A stretch of DNA of 64,000 bases, from assembly GCA_019347575.1 (NCBI GenBank), contig JAHWKY010000010.1:1-64000 (forward strand). The letters run 5' to 3'. Origin of the DNA: Actinomycetota bacterium. Its GTDB lineage: Bacteria > Actinomycetota > Nitriliruptoria > Nitriliruptorales > Nitriliruptoraceae. Positions 18,496 through 23,648 of this stretch are shown here, piece after piece (the first letter of the stretch is position 1; every line of letters starts with the position of its first letter). Under the pieces are notes generated by a model. That model was not told where the DNA came from. It searched no databases and saw nothing but the letters and a program-made list of their open reading frames with translations. The translations under genes were made by a program, and so were the position numbers.

Positions 18496-19773
18496 GTGGC
18501 CCGCCGGATCCCGACCCGTCTCCCCGCACCTGTGCTCGGCCTGGTGCGGGCCTTCGGACTGCCCGTCACCGAGGTCACGAGGTACTGGCGGCAGGAACGG
18601 GTCGCCCTGGGGCGTGGGTTGCTCGCGCTGTTCCTCGCCGCCAACGCCGACCTCGCCGCGGGGATCGTGCTCGGGAAGGCCGAGTCCCAGGTGGAGGATC
18701 TGCCCGGTCTGCTCGTGCTGATCCCCGCCGCGATCGCCATGCGCGGCGCGACCTTCGGGGCGCTCGGGGCGCGCCTCGGCACCGCCATCCACACCGGCGA
18801 GTTCGAGCCGGACCTCGAGCGGGGCGGCTACCTGTGGCGCCAGCTCGAAGCGATCGCGGTCCTCACGCTCGTGACATCGGTCGAAGCGGCCCTGTTGGCC
18901 AAGGCGCTGAGCGTCGCTACCGGACTCGAGTCCGTGACGGTCTGGGACCTCGTCGCGGTGTCCGTCATCGGCGGCGTGCTGGCGTCGCTCGTGCTCGTCG
19001 TCGTGACGATCAGCCTCGCGCGCGCAGCGCAGCGGCGCGGCTGGAACATGGACGACGTCGGGGCCCCCGCGATCACCGCGACCGGCGATCTGTTCGCGGT
19101 GCCCGCCCTGCTCGTCGCCACCGTCCTGGCCCAGCGGGGCGCGATCACCCTGGCCGTCGGGATCGGCCTGGTCGTGGCCGGCGTCGTCGGCACCGCCTAC
19201 GGATGGCGACACCGAGCCGCGGATGTCCGCCGCATCGTCAGGGAGTCGTTCATCGTCCTGACTTTCGCGGCAGCCGTATCGGTGTTGGCCGGGATCGTGC
19301 TCGAGTCGCGGAGCGAGCTGTTCACCGCCATCCCCGCCCTCCTCGTGCTGTTCCCGCCGTTCGTCGCGATGTTCGGATCGCTTGGCGGGATCCTGTCGAG
19401 TCGGCTCACGAGCAAGCTGCACCTCGGCCTGCTCTCACCCCGGACCTTCCCGGGCAAGATCGCGGCGCTGGACTTCTCCGTGACGTACCTGTTCACCGCC
19501 GTGATCTTCGCCTTCGTCGGGGCGGCGACGTGGGTCCTGGCATCGGTCCTCGGTCTCGATGCACCGTCGCTGGGACAGCTCGTGGGGGTCTCACTGGTCG
19601 GTGGGTTCTTCGGGACCACCCTGCTGTCGGCGGTCGCGTACACGGCCGCCACCGCGACGTTCCGGTTCGGCCTCGATCCGGACAACCACGCCATCCCGAT
19701 CGTGACATCGGTGATGGATTTCCTGGGCATGTTGTGTCTCGTCGCCGCGATGGCGATGCTGGGAGTCGGATGA
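18496..19773 (+). CDS. SLC41/MgtE-type divalent cation transporter, two MgtE membrane domains
   Basis: 425 residues with two repeated membrane modules. The first has IPAAIAMRGATFGALGARLG (about 77-96) and ATGDLFAVPALL; the second has LLVLFPPFVAMFGSLGGILS (about 282-301) and LDPDNHAIPIVTSVMDFLG. Duplicated MgtE membrane domains without the cytosolic CBS sensor of bacterial MgtE are the hallmark of SLC41-like transporters, so Mg2+ (possibly Co2+ or other divalent ion) transport is inferred. Regulation may come from the next gene, whose ATG overlaps this stop as ATGA and which encodes PhoU and RCK_C-like domains. GTG start at 18496. Confidence 0.8.
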   Translation: MARRIPTRLPAPVLGLVRAFGLPVTEVTRYWRQERVALGRGLLALFLAANADLAAGIVLGKAESQVEDLPGLLVLIPAAIAMRGATFGALGARLGTAIHTGEFEPDLERGGYLWRQLEAIAVLTLVTSVEAALLAKALSVATGLESVTVWDLVAVSVIGGVLASLVLVVVTISLARAAQRRGWNMDDVGAPAITATGDLFAVPALLVATVLAQRGAITLAVGIGLVVAGVVGTAYGWRHRAADVRRIVRESFIVLTFAAAVSVLAGIVLESRSELFTAIPALLVLFPPFVAMFGSLGGILSSRLTSKLHLGLLSPRTFPGKIAALDFSVTYLFTAVIFAFVGAATWVLASVLGLDAPSLGQLVGVSLVGGFFGTTLLSAVAYTAATATFRFGLDPDNHAIPIVTSVMDFLGMLCLVAAMAMLGVG

Positions 19774-20993
19774 CCATGCGAACACCACGACGCACCGTCA
19801 AGGAACTGCTCGTCGGGGCGAAGGACGCCGCCGAGTTGATGGTCGACCTCGCGTACGCGGCTGTCTTCTTCGGCGACGACGACCTCGCCTCCGAGGTGCT
19901 GCGCCTCGAGGAGAGGGTCGACGAGGAGCTGGTGGAGCTGCGCCACGTGTGCATGCTCGCCGCCCGGACGCCGGAGGACGCCGAGTCGCTCGCCGGCGTG
20001 CTCTCGATGGCGGTCAGCATCGAGGGCATCGCGGACGCCGCCGAGGACATCGCCCGGGTGGTGCTCAAGAAGCTCGGGGTCCCGCCCGAGCTCCGCGACG
20101 ACCTCCGTCACGCGGCGGAGACGGTCGCTCGCGTGAAGATCCGGGAGGAGAACCAGCTCGAAGGTCGGCCGCTGCGGGAGCTGGAGCTCCCGGCCCACAC
20201 CGGCATGTGGGTCATCGCGATCCGCCGCGACGTCGACTGGGTCTACGGCCCCGGCGGCGACGAGACCCTCCGCGAGGGTGACGTGCTGTTCCTGCAAGGG
20301 CCTTCCGAGGGCATCGACCTCGTCCGCCAGCTCGCTGGCGGGACCCCCCACGAGCTCCCGCCACCTTCGGAGTCCTCGAAGCTGTCGAACCTCGACCGTG
20401 CCGTCGACCTGCTCGTCGAGCTCAAGAACGCGAGCGAGGTTGCCGTCGGTCTGGCGTACTCGTCGATCCTCCTGCGTGACCCCAACCTCGCCGCCGAGGT
20501 GAGCGTCATCGAGGACAAGAGCGACGACCTCTACCACGAGCTCGAAGGGTGGGTGCTGCGGGCGGCGGCTGAGGTCGACGATCCCGAGGTCCTCCGCGGC
20601 CTGATCCACATCTCCTCGGCCTCCGAGCGCATCGTCGACTCGGCGCAGTCGATGACGCGGATCATCGAGGGCGACGAGGAGCCCCACCCGATCATCGCCC
20701 AGGCCCTGAGCCAGGCCGACGAGATCGTCGCCGACGCCATCGTCCACGCGGGGTCGGAGGTCGAGGGCCACTCGCTCGGGGAGCTGCGCATCCACACGGA
20801 GACCGGCATGGAGATCCTGGCGATCGAGAAGGCCGACAAGTGGGTCTACCGCCCGCGGTCCACACGCAAGCTCCAGACCGGCGATCGGCTGCTCGCCATC
20901 GGCCCCGAGGAGGGCGCCCCGCGGCTGCGCCAGCTCTGCGGCGATCCCCGCCCCCAGGGCGAGGAGGGCTGGACCGACCCTGACCCCGATTAG
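19770..20993 (+). CDS. Duplicated PhoU/TrkA-C (RCK_C) regulatory protein
   Basis: 407 residues built from two similar halves. Each has a helical PhoU-like domain (about 10-100 and 207-295; compare KDAAELMVDLAYAAVFFGDD with NASEVAVGLAYSSILLRDP) and then a TrkA_C/RCK_C-like domain (about 112-195 and 300-385; ELPAHTGMWVIAIRRDVDW and IHTETGMEILAIEKADKW). RCK_C domains bind small ligands or ions and gate channels; PhoU domains act as helical regulators. The start-stop overlap with the SLC41-like gene suggests it is that transporter's cytoplasmic regulator; this partnership is inferred. A second in-frame ATG at 19776 is an alternative start. Open frame upstream to 18834 is a shadow of the transporter gene. 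Confidence 0.8.
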   Translation: MTMRTPRRTVKELLVGAKDAAELMVDLAYAAVFFGDDDLASEVLRLEERVDEELVELRHVCMLAARTPEDAESLAGVLSMAVSIEGIADAAEDIARVVLKKLGVPPELRDDLRHAAETVARVKIREENQLEGRPLRELELPAHTGMWVIAIRRDVDWVYGPGGDETLREGDVLFLQGPSEGIDLVRQLAGGTPHELPPPSESSKLSNLDRAVDLLVELKNASEVAVGLAYSSILLRDPNLAAEVSVIEDKSDDLYHELEGWVLRAAAEVDDPEVLRGLIHISSASERIVDSAQSMTRIIEGDEEPHPIIAQALSQADEIVADAIVHAGSEVEGHSLGELRIHTETGMEILAIEKADKWVYRPRSTRKLQTGDRLLAIGPEEGAPRLRQLCGDPRPQGEEGWTDPDPD

Positions 20994-21001
20994 GAGGCCT
21001 G

Positions 21002-21730
21002 TCAGCCTGCGGGGGTGAACGTGCCCTCGAGGTGCCACACGCCGGTGAAGTTGTCGAACGGGCCACCGACGATCTGGCTGGTCCAGTTGAGGGTGTACGC
21101 GCCCATGGCGGTGTCGTAGTCACCGATCACTGGTGTGGTGTTGCCGGGCAGGTCGCCTCCCGGCTTGGGGCTGCCCTGGTTGAAGAACTGTCCGTTCCAC
21201 GCCGCCGACAGCGCGCTGAGGTCGCCCTCCAGGTGGCCGTCAGCGCTCACCGAGAGCGTCGGCGGCGGTACCTCGATGCCGGTCTGGGGATCGACCGGGT
21301 TGGTGCCGACCGCGAAGTCGACCGCGAACCACCTCGCGGGTGCGGTGAGGGCGGCGGCCACCGCGTTGCCGGCATCGTCGAACACGGGGTCGGGGAAGGG
21401 CTGGTGCCGACCGGTAGCGAGGCCGCCGTCGCTGCCCGGCTCGAGCGGCACCCAGGTCTGGTCACCGCACGGTGAATCGCCGTTGGGTACGAACGGGCCG
21501 TCAGCGGGGTTGCCGCCGGACTGCACCATGCGGAAGTACGACCCGGCCGTGACCCCGGCGTCGGCGCACACCCCGGGATCGATCGCGAAGACGCCGACGA
21601 GCTCACCACCGGCGGCGGCTGCGGTCGGTGCGTCCGTCTGTCCACCCGCGGCGGGCGTGACGTCATCCCCACCACAGGCCACGGCTGCCAGGACGAGGGC
21701 GGTGAGGAAGGCGGCGAGACGGCGGATCAC
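21002..21730 (-). CDS. Secreted lipoprotein, paralogue of the gene at 22710-23648
   Basis: 242 residues from GTG 21730, which overlaps the neighbour's stop as GTGA. A signal peptide ends in LAAVACGGDD, a likely lipobox with Cys19, so the protein is probably lipid-anchored outside the cell. The single domain (about 44-240) shares GVF-I--G-C, GSYFRMV, the GSDGGL-TG block, TNPVDPQTGIEVP, FFNQGSPKP and IVGGPFDNFTGVWHLEGTF with the paralogue two genes away. Conserved Cys pairs suggest a disulfide-bonded beta-rich fold. I do not recognise a named family or activity. The three genes 21002-23648 overlap and probably form one operon. Confidence 0.75.
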   Translation of the reverse strand: MIRRLAAFLTALVLAAVACGGDDVTPAAGGQTDAPTAAAAGGELVGVFAIDPGVCADAGVTAGSYFRMVQSGGNPADGPFVPNGDSPCGDQTWVPLEPGSDGGLATGRHQPFPDPVFDDAGNAVAAALTAPARWFAVDFAVGTNPVDPQTGIEVPPPTLSVSADGHLEGDLSALSAAWNGQFFNQGSPKPGGDLPGNTTPVIGDYDTAMGAYTLNWTSQIVGGPFDNFTGVWHLEGTFTPAG

Positions 21731-22713
21731 GGGACGGTCTCCTGCTCGGCGGAGCGGCGCGGCGTTCGGGCGGGCTCCGTGCCCGTCTCCCCCCCGCCCC
21801 GCGACCACCACGCCAGAGCGGCGACGAGGACGCCGGGCACGACGAAGAACCACGGGAACAGGGGGAACGGCGGCAGCGCGTCGATGCCCGCGAACTCCTC
21901 CACGTTGTCGGCCATCGCCCCGATCATGGGTGCCATGTCGGCGGCGATAGCCGGCCAGGCTGCCAGGAAGTCGTCGGTCGCGGGCAGATCTGCGGCCAGG
22001 GCGGTCGATCCCGGCACGTAGCCCGCCTCGGGGAGCAAGCACGTGCGCACCTCGCCCTCGAACGAACCGATGGTGACGAAGTAGCCCTGGATCGACGCGA
22101 CGCGATCGCTCGTCATGAGCGGCCGGAGGTCGTCGATCATCTCGCCGCCGAGCGGGGCGCGCGTGAACATCTGGAAGGTCGCCGGAGCGGCGACGAGCGC
22201 GACGCCGAGACCGACGAGTCCCAGGACCGGACCACGAGCGGAGGATCCCGCACGCACACGACGCAGCGCGATCCAGCCGACCACGGCGATGGCGAGGCCC
22301 GGCAGGACGAAGAACCAGGGGAACAGGGCGAACGGCGGCAGCGCAGCCACGGCCGCGTAGTTGTCGACGTTGGCCTCGATGTCGGCGATCATCGCAGCCA
22401 TGTCGGACTCGATGTCCGGCCACCGCTGCACCATCGCGTCGGTCGCGGGCAGCGGCTGCGACGCGGTCTGCGCCAACGCGTTGATCTCGCCGGTCGCGCG
22501 GCCGATCCGATCGAGGTGGCCGCTGAACCCGTCGAGGCGCTGCTCGGTCATGAAGGGCGCGAAGTCGGCGAGCATGCGCCCACCGCCCGGGGCGCGTGTG
22601 AACATCTGGAACACGACCGGCGCGGCCACGAGGCCCAGACCGATCGCGACGATGACGGCGAGGGCCGAACGGCGTCGGCGGTCGGTCCCGCCCCGATCCC
22701 GCCTGGAGGTCAC
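21727..22713 (-). CDS. Membrane protein with an internally duplicated extracytoplasmic module
   Basis: 328 residues from GTG 22713, overlapping the upstream stop as GTGA. The protein is two copies of one unit: a helix ending AAPVVFQMFTRAPGGGRM or AAPATFQMFTRAPLGGEM, a helical loop of about 90 residues, then ALPPFALFPWFFVLPGLAIA or ALPPFPLFPWFFVVPGVLVA. This gives four membrane helices with two similar extracytoplasmic loops. It lies between two paralogous secreted proteins and may form a complex with them. The function is unknown. An extra Arg-rich tail and Gly/Glu-rich end are likely cytoplasmic. Confidence 0.75.
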   Translation of the reverse strand: MTSRRDRGGTDRRRRSALAVIVAIGLGLVAAPVVFQMFTRAPGGGRMLADFAPFMTEQRLDGFSGHLDRIGRATGEINALAQTASQPLPATDAMVQRWPDIESDMAAMIADIEANVDNYAAVAALPPFALFPWFFVLPGLAIAVVGWIALRRVRAGSSARGPVLGLVGLGVALVAAPATFQMFTRAPLGGEMIDDLRPLMTSDRVASIQGYFVTIGSFEGEVRTCLLPEAGYVPGSTALAADLPATDDFLAAWPAIAADMAPMIGAMADNVEEFAGIDALPPFPLFPWFFVVPGVLVAALAWWSRGGGETGTEPARTPRRSAEQETVP

Positions 22714-23648
22714 GCGGCACCGCCACGCCGCCACGCGCCGAGCAGCGCCAGGGCCAGCGCCAGCGGGGCGATGAGCAGCGGGGCACCGGTGTCGGGCATC
22801 GAGTCGGCCTGGCGCGAGGTCGCGGCCTCGTTCGGTGTCGCAGCCGTGGACGGCGGGGCGTCCGACGTCGAGGAGGTGGTCGGGGCGGTCGTCGAGGTGG
22901 TGCAGGCGTCAGGGCCCGTGCCACGGAAGGTCCCCTCCAGGTGCCACACCCCCGTGAAGTTGTCGAACGGGCCACCCTGGATGCGGCTGCTCCAGGTGAG
23001 CGTGTACGCGCCGGTGGCGGGGTGGAAGGTCCCTGTGGGTCCCGACGTGCCGGACGGCGTCGAGCCGTCGGGCTTGGGCGCGCCCTGGTTGAAGTGCTGG
23101 CGGTTCCATGCCGCCGCGAAGGCACGGACGTCGCCGGTCAGCGACGCATCGCAGTCGAACGTGACGGTCGGCGCCGGCACGTCCACTCCGGTCTGCGGAT
23201 CGGTCGGGTTCGTGGCGGTGGAGAAGTCGACCCCGAAGAAACCTTCGGGGCGCGTGATGCGGTCGGCCAGACCGCCACCGTTGGTACCGAACGCCGGCTG
23301 GGGGTGCGGCTGGTAGGTGCCGGTGAGGAGCCCACCATCGCTCCCCGGCGTCAACGGTGTGTAGGTATCGTCCCCGCAGTCCGAGTCGCCGTTGCTGACG
23401 TACGGCCCCGACTCGGGGCTGCCGCCGGGGTTGACCATCCGGAAGTACGACCCGGACGTCACCGCCCCGCCCGCACACTCGCCCGCGGCGATGCCGAAGA
23501 CCCCCTCGAGCGCCGGGCTCCCGGACTGCGCGGTGGCGGCCGCTCCGGCATCAGCACGGTCCCGTGACTCGGGCAACTCCGGGAGAGGCGGGAGCGAAGG
23601 CGCCGCGCCGATCGCGAGCACGGCGAGCAACAGCAGCATCCGTGGCAC
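22710..23648 (-). CDS. Secreted surface protein with sortase-like MPDTG anchor
   Basis: 312 residues. It has a signal peptide (about 1-16) and the same extracellular domain as the 21002-21730 product (about 44-240: GSYFRMV, TNPTDPQTGVDVP, HFNQGAPKP, GGPFDNFTGVWHLEGTF). A Thr/Ser/Pro-rich linker follows, then SMPDTG, a hydrophobic stretch and RRGG at the extreme C terminus. MPDTG is a variant of the LPxTG sortase signal, so covalent wall attachment is inferred. This paralogue is wall-anchored while the other appears lipid-anchored, with a membrane protein encoded between them. No known activity is recognised. GTG start at 23648. Confidence 0.75.
   Translation of the reverse strand: MPRMLLLLAVLAIGAAPSLPPLPELPESRDRADAGAAATAQSGSPALEGVFGIAAGECAGGAVTSGSYFRMVNPGGSPESGPYVSNGDSDCGDDTYTPLTPGSDGGLLTGTYQPHPQPAFGTNGGGLADRITRPEGFFGVDFSTATNPTDPQTGVDVPAPTVTFDCDASLTGDVRAFAAAWNRQHFNQGAPKPDGSTPSGTSGPTGTFHPATGAYTLTWSSRIQGGPFDNFTGVWHLEGTFRGTGPDACTTSTTAPTTSSTSDAPPSTAATPNEAATSRQADSMPDTGAPLLIAPLALALALLGAWRRGGAA

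Follow-up and report, generated by a model that had tools for sequence, protein, structure and literature searches.

Several described systems each resemble part of a three-gene locus that we analysed in a 64,000-nucleotide stretch of actinobacterial DNA (Nitriliruptoraceae, GenBank assembly GCA_019347575.1, contig JAHWKY010000010.1, positions 1 to 64,000), referred to here as the window. In corynebacterial heme relays such as HtaA/HmuT, paired surface-anchored binding domains feed the membrane. YceI-like proteins (YceI, TT1927b) are secreted beta barrels, and the SoxT/YeeE sulfur importers of sHdr organisms are a membrane component beside sHdr-LbpA-like genes. On the membrane side, the eukaryotic Tweety proteins (TTYH1-3) contain a hydrophobic cavity that opens from the outer membrane leaflet (excerpt of PMC8361169), and TTYH2 accelerates lipid transfer with the soluble carrier APOE (excerpt of PMC12328215). 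For the fold common to Tweety and prominin, an excerpt of PMC8617170 reports that DALI searches gave no high-confidence homologue in 2021.

The locus in the window encodes two secreted, differently anchored paralogues on either side of a duplicated membrane protein. Neither a bacterial Tweety-like protein nor this module was described among the open-licence papers listed. We favour, with a probability of roughly 0.4, the reading that the trio is an envelope relay in which a membrane extractor would pass a hydrophobic ligand on to barrel-shaped carriers anchored in the envelope. Like the heme relays, the trio has paired surface-anchored domains; unlike them, its secreted proteins match neither HtaA nor any other Pfam family at E ≤ 1, and no ATP-binding cassette (ABC) importer was noticed beside the window genes. 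The secreted domain is modelled, like the YceI-like proteins, as a beta barrel, and its structural similarity to them is weak; the trio barrels have no Pfam YceI match, are anchored by lipid or to the wall and are accompanied by a membrane gene. The membrane protein is modelled, like Tweety, with two helical ectodomains between paired transmembrane helices. It differs in having four such helices rather than five, in being bacterial with a clear internal sequence duplication and no sequence match seen, and in having anchored beta barrels rather than APOE as partners. The likeness to SoxT/YeeE is one of position, a membrane component beside sHdr-LbpA-like genes in one genome, and the proteins themselves are unrelated.

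Architecture of the three-gene locus

The trio and its parts are as follows.

22710..23648, minus strand: gene 1, 312 residues; signal peptide, secreted beta domain, Ser/Thr linker and sortase-type MPDTG tail
22926..23510, minus strand: secreted domain of gene 1, residues 47-241 (comparison with gene 3 and family alignment)
22713..22799, minus strand: sorting signal of gene 1, MPDTG with hydrophobic segment and Arg tail, residues 284-312 (sequence, hydropathy, sortases in the genome)
22710..22713, minus strand: GTGA shared by the stop of gene 1 and the start of gene 2 (sequence)
21727..22713, minus strand: gene 2, 328 residues; membrane protein with four transmembrane helices and two outward helical loops, internally duplicated (alignment of halves, helix positions, model)
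22246..22695, minus strand: unit 1 of gene 2, residues 7-156 (unit hidden Markov model, HMM)
21787..22260, minus strand: unit 2 of gene 2, residues 152-309 (unit HMM)
21727..21730, minus strand: GTGA shared by the stop of gene 2 and the start of gene 3 (sequence)
21002..21730, minus strand: gene 3, 242 residues; lipoprotein carrying the same secreted domain as gene 1
21674..21685, minus strand: lipobox A-V-A-C of gene 3, residues 16-19, Cys 19 (read by eye)
21017..21601, minus strand: secreted domain of gene 3, residues 44-238 (comparison with gene 1 and family alignment)

An initial annotation of this DNA had described a domain of about 195 residues shared by the first and last genes, a lipobox on one copy and an MPDTG wall anchor on the other, a middle gene duplicated within itself, overlaps of 4 bases and no recognised family, and in all these respects it proved accurate. 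Genes 1 and 3 are identical at 117 of 205 residues (57%, E 8e-77), and the motifs quoted for them, GSYFRMV and DPQTG, are present. Gene 1 runs from an N-terminal hydrophobic segment through a Ser/Thr linker to MPDTG, a hydrophobic tail and an Arg end, and so carries the elements of a sortase substrate: signal peptide, LPXTG-like motif (here the atypical MPDTG), hydrophobic stretch and positive tail. Gene 3 carries those of a lipoprotein, a lipobox Cys after a hydrophobic signal (hydrophobic across residues 1-25). Both junctions overlap by 4 bases (GTGA), provided the GTG starts are correct; from the sequence, gene 2 most likely starts in this overlap, at 22713, rather than at the earliest start codon, 22734. 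A search for promoters and terminators gave no sigma-70-like promoter and a single terminator-like site, which is near chance. All Pfam matches of the gene 2 protein and all NCBIfam matches of the trio proteins fall below cut-off.

The genome of the window (4.9 Mb in 120 contigs, 98.8% complete, 4.6% contamination) holds no other convincing copy of either family, six further matches having been set aside as weak or as short and confined to the signal-peptide region. The sortase to which the wall anchor had pointed has four PF04203 loci above cut-off in this genome, none of them on the window's contig, and in L027 and L028 sortase genes adjoin the relatives.

The halves of gene 2 are 45% identical across 137 residues (E 2.9e-27), and the protein has four hydrophobic segments (14-40, 119-153, 158-184 and 279-304). 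Its R-rich N-terminus has 7 K/R against 2 D/E, and its loops have 12 and 15 D/E against 6 and 4 K/R. Because of this R-rich N-terminus and the acidic loops, both loops are predicted to lie outside, on the same side as the secreted proteins. The initial annotation had gone further and proposed a complex of 2+2 symmetry whose partners sit on opposite sides of the envelope, and here it did not hold. Given the charge distribution, we reject the placement of a partner at the inner face. We also reject the 2+2 symmetry, since a two-unit membrane protein is accompanied by anything from one to three secreted domains. There is one in L022 and L025 (the latter count to be read with its short contig in mind), two in the window, L023, L029, L030 and L126, and three in L026 and L028 (two in L028 if reading frames are counted, one frame being a tandem of two domains). 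The single genome G066 has five in all. The membrane protein consists of two units in every case linked to a secreted domain.

Distribution, anchoring and evolution of the module

Searches of 101 relatives and of a phylum sample of 396 genomes gave convincing relatives of the secreted domain in G000, G066 and G157 only (3 of the 396). Matches in G088, G189 and G333 (E 4.8e-6 to 1.2e-9), which extend over no more than the first 38 to 112 residues of the query, were not counted as relatives, and a profile retest of G189 gave no match. A contig scan yielded further loci, L022, L023, L025 and L026 (L024 was equated with the G066 contig and taken as one record with it), and a plasmid search added a record of Tsukamurella tyrosinosolvens (L126). 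The membrane family extends beyond the trio: at E ≤ 0.001, gene 2 has matches in 14 of the 396 genomes, the three that carry the secreted domain and 11 in which all relatives are distant. Of 269 genomes sampled from one class, 1 has the secreted domain and 29 have the membrane family, and 24 genomes of another class gave the secreted domain in 1. With tblastn, the membrane protein found no plasmid; the distant copy on the Tsukamurella plasmid record was found by profile only. A peptide-pattern scan of viral contigs and a search of phages found no relative, and we discarded a phage or viral origin.

A lack of co-occurrence, or paralogues that are not neighbours elsewhere, had been named beforehand as what would refute the grouping, and the grouping was not refuted: a doubled membrane gene is adjacent to the secreted domain in all eight secreted-domain genomes or records. 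This constant adjacency speaks for the relay. The full order secreted gene, membrane gene, lipoprotein gene recurs in the window, L023, L028 and L126. L027, which lies on the same contig as L028, is the only locus with a secreted gene and no neighbouring membrane gene. In Tsukamurella the trio comprises a secreted gene, a membrane gene (profile E 3.5e-36) and a lipoprotein gene, annotated as 'hypothetical protein'. It is followed (L126:10317-12613) by genes for an Ala/Pro-rich secreted protein of 274 residues and an ABC transporter (weak ABC-2 membrane match), which is possibly a partner of the module. In L026 (10548-13007), from a metagenome-assembled genome (MAG) of Thermoleophilaceae, a frame between secreted-domain genes fuses a secreted alpha/alpha-toroid-like domain (sub-cut-off matches to SQHop_cyclase of Pfam) to a doubled membrane protein.

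The anchors of the relatives, read by eye, are of several kinds. Gene 3 of the window, L022, L025, L023b, one G066 copy and the Tsukamurella protein are of lipoprotein type. Sortase-type tails occur in the window (MPDTG), in L023 (LAHTG) and in G066 (LAFTG and LPNTG). The two G066 proteins are tandem-domain, and in L027 and L028, as called, each shares 4 bases with the reading frame of a sortase. The copies of L026 and L029/L030 appear to be plainly secreted, with no lipid or sortase anchor. In an alternative reading, the membrane protein would be an assembly or sorting factor, holding the barrels after their secretion and delivering them to lipidation or to a sortase. The overlap of sortase and barrel frames suits this idea, as does the fact that every genome or record found with a barrel also has a membrane gene. 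Nevertheless, the L029/L030 barrels seem to need neither sortase nor lipidation and yet retain the membrane gene, and 11 of the 14 membrane-family genomes in the phylum sample have no barrel; we regard a sorting role as unlikely.

In a poorly resolved tree, the wall- and lipid-anchored types do not separate as two old clades. An alignment of 18 secreted domains has four invariant residues (N179, K189, W216 and W232 in gene 3 numbering), Q185 being nearly so. Thirteen of the 18 have a Cys pair and 5 lack it, one of which has a single C-terminal Cys; the pattern is what a structural disulfide, rather than a catalytic Cys, would be expected to give. Membrane units linked to secreted domains group together with support of 98 in a quick tree and of 91/97, not starred, in a more careful tree that includes Tsukamurella and leaves aside the long or broken rows L096, L101, L106 and L107. 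The second units likewise group (97 and 93/96, respectively), and a clade of first units is neither supported nor rejected (P 0.50 in the approximately unbiased test). Because of these two groupings, we read the doubling as one old duplication that probably preceded the split of the secreted-linked lineages. Membrane relatives elsewhere have a single unit or were, apparently, doubled separately (L051, L054, L055 and L056).

Predicted folds and the proposed relay

A confident model of gene 2 (six sequences; mean predicted local distance difference test, pLDDT, 90.4; predicted template modelling score 0.77) has two units, each consisting of a transmembrane helix, an outward helical bundle and a second transmembrane helix. 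Its eight best Foldseek matches are all TTYH1 or TTYH2 (best E 7.2e-4, probability 1.00), the first other protein following at E 0.024. In VIA, TTYH1-3 occupy nine of the ten best rows, with Z of 8.9-10.2 over 260-286 residues and a root mean square deviation (rmsd) of 8.9-9.7. The best of them, 7p54 (Z 10.2, rmsd 9.0, 267 residues), aligns residues 7-312 of the model with residues 88-416 of the chain, a region that we read as transmembrane helices 2 to 5. The secreted domain of gene 3 is modelled as an all-beta barrel. YceI and a polyisoprenoid-binding protein are named among its seven best VIA rows (Z 5.0-6.1), as are BcnA, BcnB and 7bwl, which we take to be members of the YceI-type family.

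In the relay that we favour, gene 2 would be a membrane receptor or extractor, its four transmembrane helices bearing two outward helical bundles. If the Tweety-like model is a guide, these bundles would provide a hydrophobic route leading outwards from the outer leaflet. Genes 3 and 1 would provide one type of beta-barrel carrier at two heights, tethered by lipid to the membrane and fixed by sortase to the wall, and would pass the ligand between membrane and cell surface. That the barrels bind the ligand and dock on gene 2, and in which direction transfer runs, is what we infer; the cargo might be a lipid, a quinone or zero-valent sulfur. An extractor with anchored barrels fits both the anatomy of the trio and the lipid or sulfur neighbourhoods. 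The lipid neighbourhood is that of the single-unit gene in one family, f25: 10 of its 12 fetched loci have a myo-inositol-phosphate synthase gene within 5 kb, together with genes for a CDP-alcohol phosphatidyltransferase (in all 10) and a glycosyltransferase (in 9). At L046-L050, L095 and L108-L111, such single-unit relatives lie in what appears to be a phosphatidylinositol cluster (Ino1, CDP-OH-P transferase, glycosyltransferase).

Other evidence weighs against this interpretation. The template modelling scores of the TTYH matches are only 0.24-0.34 at an rmsd of about 9 Å, a single Foldseek match reaches E ≤ 0.001, and the tetraspanin CD81 attains a VIA Z of 9.6 to the same model; VIA itself warns that a Z under about 13 can reflect a common helical-bundle arrangement. 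At the sequence level, Tweety is not among the five Pfam families matched by gene 2 at E ≤ 10, and no TTYH chain is among 13 PDB sequences matching at the same threshold. For the secreted domain, the model is poor (pLDDT 61.5), and the most conserved motif, WNGQxFNQGxPKPDG, falls largely in a low-confidence stretch. Foldseek gives no match at E ≤ 0.001, its top places going to PsbO and lipocalin-type prostaglandin D synthase and not to YceI, and the best VIA Z, 6.1, lies within what the tool describes as noise. The L029/L030 barrels, with no visible anchor, indicate that two fixed heights are not universal, and the f25 loci L112 and L113 have no inositol context. Tweety is also absent among the matches listed for 12 members of the membrane family (25 of 31 Pfam families), while PDB sequence searches gave weak helical-protein matches for the membrane profiles (best E 0.034); the secreted profile matched no PDB sequence at E ≤ 1. 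We treat the TTYH matches of gene 2 as leads, not proof.

The same resemblance would suit a membrane-shaping scaffold of the prominin/Tweety kind that induces curvature or vesicles, as Ttyh1 and prominin 1 each induce extracellular vesicles (excerpt of PMC11405016). Since this would leave the paired anchored barrels and the sulfur and inositol contexts unexplained, we consider it very unlikely. Another possibility is a receptor, signalling or adhesion complex with the barrels as ligands or adhesins and gene 2 as sensor. It would accommodate the wall and lipid anchoring, the ABC transporter gene downstream in Tsukamurella and the regulators beside some relatives, but the cytoplasmic parts of gene 2 are limited to short tails and a single short loop, with no signalling domain, and such a complex seems improbable to us.

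Sulfur genes near the membrane family

Sulfur-type genes, by which we mean Pyr_redox_2 oxidoreductases, DrsE_2, TusA, LbpA-like GCV_H and HdrB-like CCG, occur within 5 kb at 10 of 41 loci (9 of 40 with a membrane gene). The count of 41 includes L102-L105 and L114, whose weak membrane-profile matches may not be true members. Pyr_redox_2 proteins are read here as sulfide-quinone oxidoreductase-like (SQR-like) or flavocytochrome c sulfide dehydrogenase-like, their sulfide-dehydrogenase Pfam matches being below cut-off. The loci are:

L022: SQR-like, DrsE_2
L051: SQR-like
L052: TusA, DrsE_2
L054: SQR-like, two DrsE_2, TusA
L097: SQR-like, CCG, two GCV_H; single-unit relative
L101: SQR-like, DrsE_2
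L106: SQR-like, DrsE_2
L107: DrsE_2, TusA
L027/L028 (G066): sHdr-like cluster alongside

The HMMs for SQR, DrsE2, TusA, GCVH, CCG and ArsR were seeded from L022, L051, L052, L054, L027 and L028, so that the seed loci match their own HMMs by construction, with Pfam supporting the seeds. Matches beyond the seeds are those in L097, L101, L106 and L107, TusA and DrsE2 in L027, and DrsE2 in L028. DrsE_2 is present in 20 of 31 genomes tested, and in seven of these it is no more than 3 kb away from the membrane gene, against 0.096 expected (P 3.6e-12, uncorrected for kinship). The seven, four genomes of family f45, one of f6, one of f48 and one Acidimicrobiia MAG, differ in the order and orientation of the genes. 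According to a single-sequence HMM, the membrane gene has ArsR-type neighbours in L098, L106 and L107 and, inside longer overlapping frames, in L052 and L101; these five neighbours are reminiscent of the sulfane-sulfur-responsive repressors sHdrR/SoxR.

The most extensive context is that of G066, an uncultured actinobacterium, whose contig 10 (CALMBW010000010; L027, L122, L028) carries an sHdr-like cluster: HdrA-like, fused HdrCB-like, two lipoate-ligase-like, LipS1-like, LipS2-like, EtfA-/EtfB-like, four GCV_H, TusA and DrsE genes, the NCBIfam names all being below curated cut-offs. A sortase and a tandem secreted gene flank the cluster on one side, and a trio and a sortase on the other, with a GCV_H gene following the lipoprotein gene on the same strand. 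Besides these two sortases, the contig holds Rieske and NrfD-like genes. By our own reading the cluster is probably of type II, because it has etfAB and a fused B3-like gene, criteria given in an excerpt of PMC11582611. In the same excerpt, type II sHdr genomes are described as having no SoxT importers.

These contexts suggest a narrower version of the relay, in which hydrophobic zero-valent sulfur (S8 or polysulfane) would be captured at the surface and passed to the membrane for the cytoplasmic sulfur carriers DsrE and TusA and for sHdr-LbpA or a sulfide-quinone oxidoreductase. The proximity of DrsE_2, the G066 cluster flanked on both sides, the ArsR-type genes and the missing SoxT all favour it. 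On the other hand, four of the seven DrsE_2-near genomes belong to f45, and in other lineages the membrane gene lies in an inositol cluster. Only one of the eight secreted-domain genomes or records (G066) has trio-type genes beside an sHdr-like cluster, DrsE_2 is missing from four (G000, G157, G656 and G658) of the seven genomes with a secreted domain that were tested, and only two of nine loci with both secreted and membrane genes are sulfur-linked. We found no sHdr-type genes in the window and, in its genome, no DrsE_2 and one SQR-like relative, 32% identical and on another contig. On the whole, this sulfur-specific version appears unlikely, and a sulfur role in the window's own organism is not supported in this draft genome by the subset of sulfur genes searched. 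A more specific proposal, which we hold to be quite unlikely, is that a Tweety-like extractor with anchored barrels would supply, in sulfur-oxidising actinobacteria, the missing sulfur delivery of SoxT-less type II sHdr organisms, its single-unit relatives being prokaryotic counterparts of Tweety and prominin.

Next to the trio of the window, two genes named by eye (18496-20993), the first for an MgtE/SLC41-like transporter and the second PhoU/TrkA_C-like, run convergently towards gene 3 and end 8 bases before it.

The module is kept from MAGs of Acidimicrobiia and Thermoleophilaceae to Tsukamurella. Because its families lie below Pfam and NCBIfam cut-offs and it holds together across these lineages, it represents a conserved surface system that is apparently unannotated. 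If the membrane protein is indeed Tweety-like, bacteria would offer a simple, duplicated model for the exchange of lipids between a membrane and soluble carriers.

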